Assembly (NCBI GenBank): GCA_025056115.1
Contig: JANWVM010000002.1
Span: forward strand, 1-64,000
Reading direction: 5' to 3'
Length of the DNA: 64,000 nt
Source of the DNA: Gloeomargarita sp. SKYG116
Lineage (GTDB): Bacteria > Cyanobacteriota > Cyanobacteriia > Gloeomargaritales > Gloeomargaritaceae
Part shown: in pieces, positions 37,520-41,883 of the stretch
Layout: each line of letters starts with the position of its first letter
How positions within the stretch are numbered: the first letter of the stretch is position 1
Notes under the pieces: model-generated
The model's input: only the letters and a program-made list of their open reading frames with translations
Told to the model about the DNA's origin: nothing
The model's database searches: none
Made by a program: the position numbers and the translations under genes

Positions 37520-37948
37520 ATGAATCCTTCTTCCCGACCTTTAGCAGTAACACCGGAAAATCTGGGCCGCATTTTGGACATGGTTGAGCGCCTGGCCCAC
37601 GAAAACCAAGTGCTGGCCCGCCAGGTGGAAACGTTGATTCAGCAGGTAGAGGATGCGCATCACTGCATTCGGGAATTATCGAAACTGATTCGGGAGATTT
37701 GGGACAATCTGGAGGGGCGCTGGGACCGGCTGGAACAGGGGTTAAAACATATTGACTCCCAGCAGGACGGGCTGCAGGGCCGGTGTGATTACCTGATTCA
37801 CCTGATGAGCCGCCCCTTTTGGCAGCAACTCCGGGACGCCAGTGCGCCGGAATGGTTGGTCAAGCAGGCCTTTGAGGAATATGTCCGGCGGTTGAACCAA
37901 ACCTTGGAGCGGGAACCGGAGAACCCACCGGAAAGTGAACAAACCTGA
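37520..37948 (+). CDS. Coiled-coil protein overlapping the cobN fragment
   Basis: 142 residues; family not recognised. Almost entirely helical, with long heptad stretches (about 15-90: LDMVERLAHENQVLARQVETL and WDRLEQGLKHIDSQQDGLQGRC) and an acidic tail. It overlaps the following CobN-like gene by 14 bp in another frame, so the two are translationally coupled. TTACAAT near 37488 may be the -10 box. Confidence 0.65.
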   Translation: MNPSSRPLAVTPENLGRILDMVERLAHENQVLARQVETLIQQVEDAHHCIRELSKLIREIWDNLEGRWDRLEQGLKHIDSQQDGLQGRCDYLIHLMSRPFWQQLRDASAPEWLVKQAFEEYVRRLNQTLEREPENPPESEQT

Positions 37949-39464
37949 GCGGCGGCGCCAACTGATAGCAGCGTTGGAGGAACAGGCAGCCGTTTGGGTG
38001 GCGCAACTCCTGCAGGGCCAGCCCTACGACCCACCTCCAGGTCCGCAAGCAGCGCAGGTCCTGGATTGGCTAGCGACGACGCTGCTCCCGCGCCTGCGGC
38101 AAACTCCTCAGGAAATCACGCATCTACTGCGAGGACTGGCCGGGGAGTATGTGCCCAGCGGTCCAGCAGGAGCGCCTAGCCGTGGCCGACCCGAGGTCTT
38201 GCCTACAGGTCGCAATTTCTACGGCGTGGATGTGCGGGCGATTCCCACAGAAATGGCTTGGCAGGTGGGGCAACAGGCAGCCCAGGCGGTGATCGAGCGC
38301 TACACCCAGGACCACGGTGAGTACCCCCGCACGCTGGCCTTGTCCATCTGGGGTACGGCGACGATCCGCAACGGGGGAGAGGATTTTGCGGAGGCGTTGG
38401 CGTTGCTGGGGGTGCGACCAGTATGGGCAGGACCCAGCCGACGGGTGGTGGATTGGGAAATTTTGCCCCTCCGTTACCTGGGTCGCCCCCGCGTGGATGT
38501 GACGTTACGGGTGTCGGGATTTTTCCGCGACAGCTTTCCCCACCTGCTCGACCTGTTCAGCCAGGCGGTGCGGGCGGTGGCAGCCTTAGAGGAATCCCCC
38601 CAGGACAATCCCCTCGTTGCGCAAATTCCCCACGACCAACAAGTATTACAGGACCAGGGGTTGCCCCCTGACCACGCCTATATCCGCGTTTTCGGGCCAA
38701 AACCAGGCAGTTATGGCGCTGGCTTGCAAGGCCTCATCGCCGCCGGCAACTGGGAGACGCCTGCCGATTTGGCGACCGCCTTCTTGAACTGGAGCGCCTA
38801 CGCCTACACCGACAGCGAGTGGGGAACCGTCGCCCCAGCCGCCCTGCGCCAGCGTTTACAAACCACGCAAATCGTTCTGCATAACCAGGACAATCGCGAA
38901 CACGACATCCTGGACTCCGATGACTACTACCAATTCCAGGGGGGGTTAACCGTTGCCATTCGCGCGCTCACGGGGCAAACACCAGTGGTCTATCACGGGG
39001 ACCACGCCCGCCCAACCGCCATCCGCATCCGTACCTTGCAAGAGGAACTCCGGCGCGTGTATCGCACCCGCGTGGTCAACCCTAAATGGATTCAGGCCAT
39101 GATGCGGCATGGGTACAAGGGAGCGTTTGAATTGGCTGCGACAGTGGATTATTTCTTTGCCTACGACGCCACAACGGGTCTGGGCGACGATGGGATATAT
39201 GCCGGCATTGCCAGGGCCTACCTGCTCGACCCGGCAGTACGCCGCTTTCTCACCCAAACCAATCCCTGGGCGCTGTGGAGTATGGCAGAACGGTTGTGGG
39301 AAGCGCACCAGCGGGGGTTATGGCAACAGGCAGACCCGGCGCTGCTCGACCAACTGCGGCAATTGATTCACACGACGGAAGCGCTTATTGAGGCCGGGGC
39401 ACCCATCGTCCAATCGTCGCCAGCAGTTCCTGAGGATTGCAGGGTTTGCCCAGATAATCGTTGA
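37935..39464 (+). CDS. C-terminal half of CobN-type cobaltochelatase large subunit, stand-alone
   Basis: 509 residues against about 1200-1300 for full CobN, which inserts cobalt in aerobic B12 synthesis with CobS/CobT or ChlI/ChlD-like AAA partners. It matches only the C-terminal half: GLAGEYVPSGPAGAPSRGR, LPTGRNFYGVDVRAIPTE, WGTATIRNGGED, VLHNQDNREHDILDSDDYY, RVVNPKWIQAMMRHGYKGAFE. The N-terminal half is absent upstream, where a coiled-coil gene sits, so CobN is either split or degraded. The reading frame is clean and family blocks are intact, which argues against decay. GTG start. The 3' 80 bp overlap cheA. Confidence 0.85.
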   Translation: MNKPERRRQLIAALEEQAAVWVAQLLQGQPYDPPPGPQAAQVLDWLATTLLPRLRQTPQEITHLLRGLAGEYVPSGPAGAPSRGRPEVLPTGRNFYGVDVRAIPTEMAWQVGQQAAQAVIERYTQDHGEYPRTLALSIWGTATIRNGGEDFAEALALLGVRPVWAGPSRRVVDWEILPLRYLGRPRVDVTLRVSGFFRDSFPHLLDLFSQAVRAVAALEESPQDNPLVAQIPHDQQVLQDQGLPPDHAYIRVFGPKPGSYGAGLQGLIAAGNWETPADLATAFLNWSAYAYTDSEWGTVAPAALRQRLQTTQIVLHNQDNREHDILDSDDYYQFQGGLTVAIRALTGQTPVVYHGDHARPTAIRIRTLQEELRRVYRTRVVNPKWIQAMMRHGYKGAFELAATVDYFFAYDATTGLGDDGIYAGIARAYLLDPAVRRFLTQTNPWALWSMAERLWEAHQRGLWQQADPALLDQLRQLIHTTEALIEAGAPIVQSSPAVPEDCRVCPDNR

Positions 39465-41883
39465 CCCCTAATTGGGCTGCCTTGTGCCGGTGACGGTCGC
39501 CAGTGCGGGACGTGAGCATCACCACAGGCAGGTGCTGGGTTTGCGAATGCGCCCGCATGCTCTGCACCAAATCCCAACCGTTGAGGCGGGGCATTTCCAA
39601 GTCGGTCAGCACTAACTGGACTTTGTCCGTATTTTGTAAGAGGGTTTCCCAGGCTTCTTGCCCGTCCCGACAGGTCAAGATGTGGTAACCAGCTTGGTCT
39701 AGGACGCTGCTAATCAGGCGACGGGTGTAAACAGAGTCTTCGGCGACCAAGATGGTTGGTTTGGCAACCGGTGATTCAACCGCTAGAGACGCCGAGGTGC
39801 GAGGGCCAGCCCGCCGGAGTTGGCTCGGTAACAACACGGCAATGGAGGCGCCGGACGGCAGGACTGCGGCACCGACCAGATAGGGGGGCAGGGGAAACAC
39901 CTCTTCAATGCGTTTCACCATCCGTTGCTGCACTTGGCTCAGTTCATCCACCAGCAAGCCAAAAGGTTGTCCCTGCGGGCCAGCGAGGACCAGGATGGCT
40001 TGCGCCAGGGGCGGGTCGAGCGGTTGGTGGTAATCCAGGAGGTGTTCGGGCAGGTAGATGGGAATATCCTGGTGGCGCCAGGAGAGGGTGAAGGGTTGGT
40101 GAAAATCCCGTTCTCGCGGCACTTCCCGCAAGATGTCCAGCACGCTGTCGGCCAAAAAACCCAATTGCTGGCCCTGGGCGCGCACAATCAACAGCGGCAG
40201 CAGACTCACCGCCAGGGGCAATCGCAGAGTGACTTGCGTGCCATGACCCGGTTCGGAGGTGATTTCTACTGTGCCCCCTAACTGGCGAATTTCCGTACGC
40301 ACCGCGTCAAGTCCCACCCCTCGGCCCGACAGTTCCGACACCTGTTCACTGGTGGAAAAGCCCGGCACAAACAAAAAGTTCAAAATCTCTTCGCGTGTCA
40401 ACTGGTCGTAGGGAGCCTGGGTCAACCCCCGTTCGCGGGCTTTTTGGTACACCCGTTCCAGGTTCACCCCCCGCCCGTCGTCGTGGATGCTGATCAGGGC
40501 CTGGTTTCCTTGGACATGGGCTTTCAACGTGATGCAAGCAGCCGCTGGTTTGCCCTGTTGCAGTCGTTCCGCAGGGGGTTCAATCCCGTGGTCGAAGGCG
40601 TTATTGACCAGGTGGGTCAGGGGTCCCTTGAGTTGATCCAGCAACAGCCGGTCTAGCAACACATCGGCGCCCTGAACATGACACTGCACCTGTTTGCCAT
40701 AACGCTGAGCGAGCCGCTGGATTTTCTGGGTAAAGGGACCGGTCAAGGTGTGAAAAGGGTTAAGGCGGGCCTTGGTGGATTCGCTGTAGATTTGGTTGAG
40801 GTTGCGGCGGAGACTGACCAGTTCGCGGGCGGTGCTGCGGGTCACCAAGTCCAAATCTTCGGCGCTTTCGCTCACTTGGGCCACAAACTCCTGGCAGGCT
40901 TGCAGGGTTTCGTGTAAAGCGCTGAAGCGGTCCATCTCCAGGGGGTCAAACTCAGCGCCTTCGGTGGCCCGGTGTTGTATAGCCAATTGCTCATAGACTT
41001 CCTCCATCCGCTCTCGCACCGGTGCAAAGCTGGCCACTAACTCCTTCAAATGGCGAATGGTGGCTTCTAGTTGCTCCTGTTGACCGCTCAGTTTTTCCAG
41101 ATACAGCAGCAGGTCGCCGCCGGTATTGGCCAGAAACTCTACGGTCTGCAAGGGCAACCGCACATGGGTAACCGTAGGGATTTCCAGTTCAGCAGGCGGG
41201 ACAGGCGGTGGGAGAACAGGGGGCGTTAGACCCAAAGACTGGTCCCGTTCCCGGCGAATCTGGGTAATGATTTGTTGCGCCAGCGCCAAGTCGGATTGTT
41301 GTTGCAGAGGGCTTACAGCAGCAGCCAACCAGGGCAGTTGGAGTTCCTCGGCCAGAAAGGTGCAATTCTCCCATAGTTCGTGACAGGCGGACAGGTCCCC
41401 TTGCTGCAAACGAGTTTCAATCACCTGGAGGCAGTCTTCCAGCGCACCCGTCAAAGCTGCCCGCACTTCCTCCTCTGGGTTGGGAGCTGCCGGTCGGGCC
41501 TGGGTGACCAACGCCGCAATGGCCTGGAGGAGTTCGGGGTCGGCGGTTACTGTCGGGTCATGGACGTTATCCAGCAACCAGGCCAGTTCCTCTACCCCGC
41601 GTCGCACCAAAGGTTCTCCCTCTGGCAGGCGGCGTTGGCCCATGAGTTCGAGCAGGTCTTCCAGGTGATGCGCCAGCGTTTGCAAGGCCCGCATTTGGAA
41701 GGTACCGGCGCCGCCTTTGAGGGTGTGAGCCGCGCGCATCAGTTGGTCATAATCCCACTGGGGCGCAGCAATCCCCTGGCGCAGGGCCGCCACGTACAAG
41801 GGGGCCTCCTCTTCCAAAAAACCCTGCCGAGCCTCCGTCATCAACTGAGTCAACAGGTCCTGGTTCAAGGGGTCGCCGTGCAT
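39385..41883 (-). CDS. Hybrid CheA-type histidine kinase with receiver (PilL/TaxAY-like)
   Basis: 832 residues. HPt domain with His53 in AHTLKGGAG, a long linker with a dimerisation region, HATPase_c with VNNAFDHGIE and GRGVGLDAV, a CheW-like domain (about 575-700), and a C-terminal receiver (about 712-832) with Asp in LVLTDLEMPRLNG. Phosphorylates the CheY/PatA-type regulators of the same operon to steer type-IV-pilus motility. Last gene of the operon; 11 bp from the MCP stop. No cheR or cheB. Confidence 0.9.
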   Translation of the reverse strand: MHGDPLNQDLLTQLMTEARQGFLEEEAPLYVAALRQGIAAPQWDYDQLMRAAHTLKGGAGTFQMRALQTLAHHLEDLLELMGQRRLPEGEPLVRRGVEELAWLLDNVHDPTVTADPELLQAIAALVTQARPAAPNPEEEVRAALTGALEDCLQVIETRLQQGDLSACHELWENCTFLAEELQLPWLAAAVSPLQQQSDLALAQQIITQIRRERDQSLGLTPPVLPPPVPPAELEIPTVTHVRLPLQTVEFLANTGGDLLLYLEKLSGQQEQLEATIRHLKELVASFAPVRERMEEVYEQLAIQHRATEGAEFDPLEMDRFSALHETLQACQEFVAQVSESAEDLDLVTRSTARELVSLRRNLNQIYSESTKARLNPFHTLTGPFTQKIQRLAQRYGKQVQCHVQGADVLLDRLLLDQLKGPLTHLVNNAFDHGIEPPAERLQQGKPAAACITLKAHVQGNQALISIHDDGRGVNLERVYQKARERGLTQAPYDQLTREEILNFLFVPGFSTSEQVSELSGRGVGLDAVRTEIRQLGGTVEITSEPGHGTQVTLRLPLAVSLLPLLIVRAQGQQLGFLADSVLDILREVPRERDFHQPFTLSWRHQDIPIYLPEHLLDYHQPLDPPLAQAILVLAGPQGQPFGLLVDELSQVQQRMVKRIEEVFPLPPYLVGAAVLPSGASIAVLLPSQLRRAGPRTSASLAVESPVAKPTILVAEDSVYTRRLISSVLDQAGYHILTCRDGQEAWETLLQNTDKVQLVLTDLEMPRLNGWDLVQSMRAHSQTQHLPVVMLTSRTGDRHRHKAAQLGVNDYLGKPCNPQELLATIGRWVPRPQ

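Follow-up and report, generated by a model that had tools for sequence, protein, structure and literature searches.

Conserved fission of the CobN gene in two cyanobacterial families suggests a two-chain cobaltochelatase subunit

A C-terminal CobN gene overlaps a small coiled-coil gene

The window analysed here comprises 64,000 nucleotides from the genome of Gloeomargarita sp. SKYG116 (G000), which is available as an assembly of 258 contigs. It contains two closely spaced genes with the following features:

37520..37948, + strand: gene of a 142-residue coiled-coil protein, genus-restricted and tied to CobN-C by position only
37935..37948, + strand: 14-bp overlap between the stop region of the coiled-coil gene and the start of CobN-C; the same GTG overlap is found in G001 and G003
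37935..39464, + strand: C-terminal half of CobN (CobN-C), 509 residues, GTG start; covers the final helices ahead of domain V and, after them, domains V-VI of a class I chelatase large subunit
38022..38042, + strand: PYDPPPG motif, located in the N-terminus that the split created in CobN-C and found in split CobN only
38913..38945, + strand: domain V active-site motif DSDDYYQFQGG (residues 327-337), assigned from alignments and invariant in 20 aligned sequences

Both reading frames and their overlap agree with the original prediction for this DNA. A promoter scan yielded no sigma-70-like promoter site.

The CobN-C reading frame matches PF02514 at profile positions 632-1088 of 1090 (E = 3e-190; 624-1088 in the whole-genome search) and the CobN equivalog TIGR02257 at positions 761-1225 of 1226. 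Because coverage of the two profiles begins only at positions 632 and 761, respectively, the N-terminal ~730-760 residues are absent, in line with the 700-800 residues predicted to be missing. As judged from this coverage, the gene represents the C-terminal 40% of CobN. With 684 bits for TIGR02257 versus 366 bits for BchH, the best-fitting model is that of CobN and not of ChlH/BchH. The predicted structure of CobN-C superposes well with 9fpc, a 384-residue CobN chain (Foldseek target-normalised TM-score of 0.92, query residues 99-466), and also retrieves CobN of Mycobacterium tuberculosis (7c6o; Foldseek E = 2.9e-39).

Alignment with full-length CobN places the segment NREHDILDSDDYYQFQGG of CobN-C in domain V as a conserved part of the cavity. 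Within it, D330 (i.e., the second D of the DD pair in DSDDYYQFQGG) aligns with H1174 of ChlH and H1209 of HmuS, so that CobN-C carries an aspartate in place of the histidine of the ChlH-type motif. The residue roles behind this assignment are taken from PMC12583661 and PMC13297055. Within the genus, pN/pS of CobN-C ranges from 0.12 to 0.26, and the gene is thus under strong purifying selection. The 3' end of CobN-C overlaps a convergent gene for a cheA-like hybrid kinase (39385-41883, - strand) by 80 bp (39385-39464). The proteins of G002-G006 are shorter, with 483-495 residues, and the last residues of the window's CobN-C are therefore probably an extension into cheA.

The N-terminal half of CobN is encoded at a distant locus

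Searching all contigs of the window's own genome with PF02514 revealed four loci, which encode ChlH, ChlH2, CobN-N and CobN-C. CobN-N is a gene of 773 codons with clean ends (C122:8339-10660), whose PF02514 match (C122:8735-10516) spans profile positions 1-630. It scores 849 bits with TIGR02257 (positions 1-741 of 1226) versus 334 bits with BchH, and for both halves TIGR02257 thus ranks above the ChlH/BchH models. The two full-length PF02514 proteins of the genome are ChlH on C110 (PRK12493, 2167 bits) and a BchH/ChlH2-type protein on C214, and the profile search of the genome found no full-length CobN. From these four loci it follows that the two halves complement each other, overlap little or not at all on the profile and are not accompanied by an undivided CobN. 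No single polypeptide covers all six domains; positions 1-741 and 761-1225 are provided by genes on different contigs, and since only the pair achieves full coverage, we refer to it as a split CobN. The N-terminal half, for which a search had been suggested, thus exists as a separate gene, which supports the split chelatase considered for this locus.

CobN-N is surrounded by trpA, a glycosyltransferase gene, sppA, asd, tig, clpP and clpX, with no cob genes among them. As the genes of the two halves are unlinked, co-regulation is not evident. In G000, G001 and G003 only, CobN-N ends in a proline-rich, probably disordered tail of ~45 residues (L022:7490-7658 on C122 of G000).

The break lies in a variable linker and both halves retain cavity residues

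We aligned 15 N-terminal halves, 16 C-terminal halves and 24 full-length CobN proteins. All 15 N-terminal halves end, and all 16 C-terminal halves begin, within a single stretch, namely the linker whose length varies most among full-length CobN proteins. The break lies between the motifs ..DFDPL.. and ..ALExQA.., ahead of the helices that precede domain V. In published class I structures, domains III-IV and V-VI make up the body, and the cavity lies where domains III, V and VI meet (PMC12583661). Since the break precedes the domain V helices and the comparable fragments 9fpc, 6ys9 and 5ewu were solved alone, the split would leave two plausibly foldable pieces. For the C-terminal piece, the isolated CobN chain 9fpc and the ChlH truncates 6ys9 and 5ewu indicate that it can fold by itself.

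Among the 317 columns that are invariant in the 24 full-length proteins, the window's genome retains 291 (143 of 157 in the N-terminal and 148 of 160 in the C-terminal half), and 267 are kept in all 15 split genomes. The conserved blocks of the C-terminal half are hence intact, as originally predicted. The N-terminal half carries the cavity motifs HLGKHGTVEW and NDPGEG, so that the domain III and V cavity residues are present across the two halves. Specifically, it keeps the histidine of KHG with the following glutamate and the glutamate of NDPGEG, which correspond to H621 and E625 of ChlH and, going by the motif, probably to its E660 (catalytic residues from PMC13297055). With active-site residues on both halves, the two genes are best read as encoding a two-chain CobN.

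The split is conserved in two cyanobacterial families

Within the window's family (f1), eight genomes were sampled, seven of the window's genus plus G007. A separate CobN-C is present in 8/8 and CobN-N in 7/8 of them; the remaining genome, G006, is 83% complete and contains the C-terminal half only. Moreover, both halves are separate in all eight genomes sampled from a second family (f5), which is presumably the Thermostichales / Synechococcus JA group. In the split genomes of both families the halves reside at distant loci, and the same pattern is seen in relatives with contigs of 2.8-3.2 Mb.

Surveying the class, we obtained a match to the C-terminal part of CobN at the cut-off in 257 of 291 genomes. 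Outside the two families, nearly all of the matches listed lie in frames of ~1000 residues or more. Thus, among the matches listed, a single CobN gene is the norm in almost all other cyanobacteria, as had been anticipated. Frames of ~720-800 residues occur among the matches listed in G034, G158, G246 and G253, and a few additional splits may exist. Several shorter CobN frames were considered as further splits and rejected: those of G042, G053 and G199 are located at contig ends, those of G222, G256 and G280 start within ~430 bp of a contig end as judged from their coordinates, and those of G268 and G243 are in-place frame breaks with both parts adjacent. In the near-complete genome G268 (L037), this frame break lies close to the linker of the split, at reference residues 830-848, and in G243 (L038) at residue 753.

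A proposed two-chain CobN that may be driven by ChlI/ChlD

Both halves are present, intact and conserved and, as judged from the genome searches, are not accompanied by a full-length CobN. We consider it highly probable that the CobN gene underwent fission and that CobN-N and CobN-C, produced from unlinked genes, reassemble into one CobN driven by ChlI/ChlD; assembly, activity and the ChlI/ChlD partnership are what we infer beyond the gene content. The first chain (CobN-N) would contribute the head, the neck and domains III-IV, and the second (CobN-C) domains V-VI. Most likely, the chains would assemble post-translationally into one CobN body with its cavity between domains III, V and VI. Into this cavity, the first chain would project the KHG histidine with its neighbouring glutamate and the NDPGEG glutamate, and the second the segment REHD..DSDDYYQF. 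A shared ChlI/ChlD AAA+ motor could then drive Co2+ insertion for cobamide synthesis.

A search for ChlI/ChlD and CobT, part of what was suggested alongside the original prediction, revealed an AAA+ partner pair in the window's own genome, with a full-length ChlD on C203 and a ChlI / ChlI-like protein on C186. CobT was not found in the search of this genome, and cobB is present. This combination fits the proposal that ChlI/ChlD stand in for CobS/CobT with CobN in cyanobacteria (PMC9227772).

The proposed enzyme resembles CobN (TIGR02257; M. tuberculosis 7c6o; 9uk9) in sequence, conserved motifs and predicted fold. However, TIGR02257 describes one chain of ~1250 residues, whereas here two chains from unlinked genes jointly cover positions 1-741 and 761-1225. 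The structures 9fpc and those of ChlH (6ys9 and 5ewu) comprise about the same region as CobN-C. The titles of the latter two describe them as truncates or C-terminal fragments, and 9fpc is the structure of a short, isolated CobN chain. By contrast, CobN-C is a natural gene, and it has ~90 additional N-terminal residues and a PYDPPPG motif. With ChlH/BchH, the split CobN shares the PF02514 superfamily and probably the use of a ChlI/ChlD motor. It differs in that ChlH/BchH carry a TDVSHYF stretch where CobN-C has DSDDYYQFQGG, and two separate full-length H subunits are encoded in the same genome. The heme dechelatase HmuS (9d26) shares the class I chelatase fold of six domains and the position of the cavity at domains III/V/VI, but performs the reverse reaction on heme as a single chain with a Met-rich insertion. 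Its sequence is also more distant (E = 7e-67 vs 5e-145 for CobN).

One fission or two

The gene may have broken separately in f1 and in f5, both times at the same linker. We regard this as a serious possibility, only slightly less probable than its opposite and compatible with a two-chain CobN. It is suggested by the full-length CobN of G061, which groups with the split proteins of the second family (SH-aLRT 100) and away from those of the window's family. However, a tree with all split proteins in one clade is not rejected by the AU test (p = 0.061 for the concatenated alignment, 0.137 for the N-terminal and 0.283 for the C-terminal half), and re-fusion of the gene in the lineage of G061 would be compatible as well. 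Furthermore, a PYD/NPPPG-type motif occurs in 15 of 16 C-terminal halves (with one variant in G005) but in none of the 24 full-length CobN proteins. Being confined to split CobN-C, this motif speaks for a single fission event, but two breaks in this linker, or a single break followed by re-fusion, are also plausible.

The coiled-coil gene is a genus-specific neighbour

The 142-residue protein has no family match above the cut-off in profile searches. Its heptads carry hydrophobic residues at 20 of 25 a/d positions, a value reached by none of 20,000 shuffled sequences, and AlphaFold2 predicts one helix spanning residues 12-96 (mean pLDDT 80, pTM 0.41), for which a structure search returned nothing significant. 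The gene is located upstream of CobN-C in 7/7 genomes of the window's genus. In G002, G004, G005 and G006, CobN-C instead has an ATG in frame, located 3-6 nt downstream of the stop codon of the coiled-coil gene. The protein identity of 84-93% and a pN/pS of 0.05-0.18 within the genus indicate a genuine gene that is subject to purifying selection.

Beyond the genus, the gene is absent at E ≤ 0.001 from 90 other cyanobacterial genomes, including G007 and those of the second family. A loose search of G007 and the second family gave chance-level matches only, and the genome collection contained none outside the window's group, its two matches corresponding to G002 and G006. The genus conserves an entire block of khpB, psb28, ctpA, coiled coil, CobN-C, cheA and mcp (apart from CobN, gene names were given by eye). 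The same gene order in six other genomes of the genus, one of which carries CobN-C on a 3.16-Mb chromosome record, rules out an assembly join at 37940. As the whole block from khpB to mcp is syntenic, the adjacency of coiled coil and CobN-C is weak evidence for a link, and the pair is not conserved beyond this one block. In G007, CobN-C follows lpdA-like and trpC-like ORFs (by eye). Upstream of these, on the same strand, lies a CobO-like (corrinoid adenosyltransferase) ORF (L011:7007-7639), also identified by eye; no other linkage between a CobN half and a cob gene was observed.

The coiled coil had been proposed to stand in for the N-terminal half and to form a functional two-protein unit with CobN-C. 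Neither idea is supported: it is confined to one genus, lies inside a syntenic block and is absent from relatives with a split CobN, and is therefore not the replacement half. We also considered it as a diverged N-terminal half, but it has no similarity to CobN, and the true N-terminal half, the likely partner of CobN-C, was found on C122. As judged from gene content, the coiled coil is not required for split CobN. It is a genus-specific neighbour, and any role in the chelatase would be accessory.

Along these lines, it might help the two CobN chains to assemble, or tether them, as a factor that evolved in this genus only. The geometry of translational coupling, the conservation within the genus and the long heptad coiled coil, a potential rod for dimerisation or docking, would suit such a factor, which would be compatible with the two-chain reading. 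We nevertheless think it unlikely, as the sister genus represented by G007 and the genomes of the second family manage without it, and as it has no domain or sequence link to chelatases. Somewhat more doubtful still is a three-component large subunit, in which the coiled coil, translated with CobN-C, would dock both CobN chains or tether them to ChlI/ChlD. If true, this would amount to a controllable chelatase with an active site only when separately expressed halves meet.

A complex of coiled coil and CobN-C for metal or tetrapyrrole handling, distinct from a cobaltochelatase, appears very improbable. Tight overlap or adjacency in all seven genomes of the genus and the strong conservation of the coiled-coil protein speak for it, but CobN-N accompanies CobN-C in every genome except one that is incomplete, residues conserved specifically in CobN are retained in CobN-C, split-CobN genomes of G007 and the second family lack the coiled-coil gene, and the synteny extends across the whole block. 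Finally, that CobN-C is a decaying fragment, a pseudogene or an assembly artefact, as the presence of only half of the usual gene in the window might suggest, can practically be dismissed given the recurrence of the split in genomes of two families that were assembled independently, seven syntenic genomes, strong purifying selection, a complementary N-terminal half and retained invariant columns.

Significance of the split and a second Mg-chelatase cluster

The conserved fission of the CobN gene is real, and the original prediction was right about the split and wrong about the partner. We found no earlier description of a split CobN in the literature searched, which covered few subscription journals; the accessible part of a study on cyanobacterial ChlH/CobN (PMC10156173) does not mention one. 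An active site divided between two unlinked genes would represent a natural dissection of a class I tetrapyrrole chelatase. For this enzyme class no solved holo-complex is known (stated for Mg chelatase in PMC13297055), and the split provides two smaller pieces on which corrin binding and the contact to ChlD could be studied. In genome scoring, cyanobacteria with split CobN can be mis-called as having a truncated or absent CobN. Moreover, the split is common to two early-branching cyanobacterial groups and might serve as a phylogenetic marker.

The window's genome also contains a second Mg-chelatase cluster (C214:41740-48350; L002), which encodes a ChlH2/BchH-type H subunit of 1271 residues, a ChlD-like protein, whose ORF scores above the family cut-off, and a ChlI-like protein on one strand. 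A second full-length H subunit is also present in G001 and G003, but not in G002, G004 and G005. According to PMC10156173, G. lithophora lacks ChlH2, and the distribution of this subunit within the genus is thus patchy.
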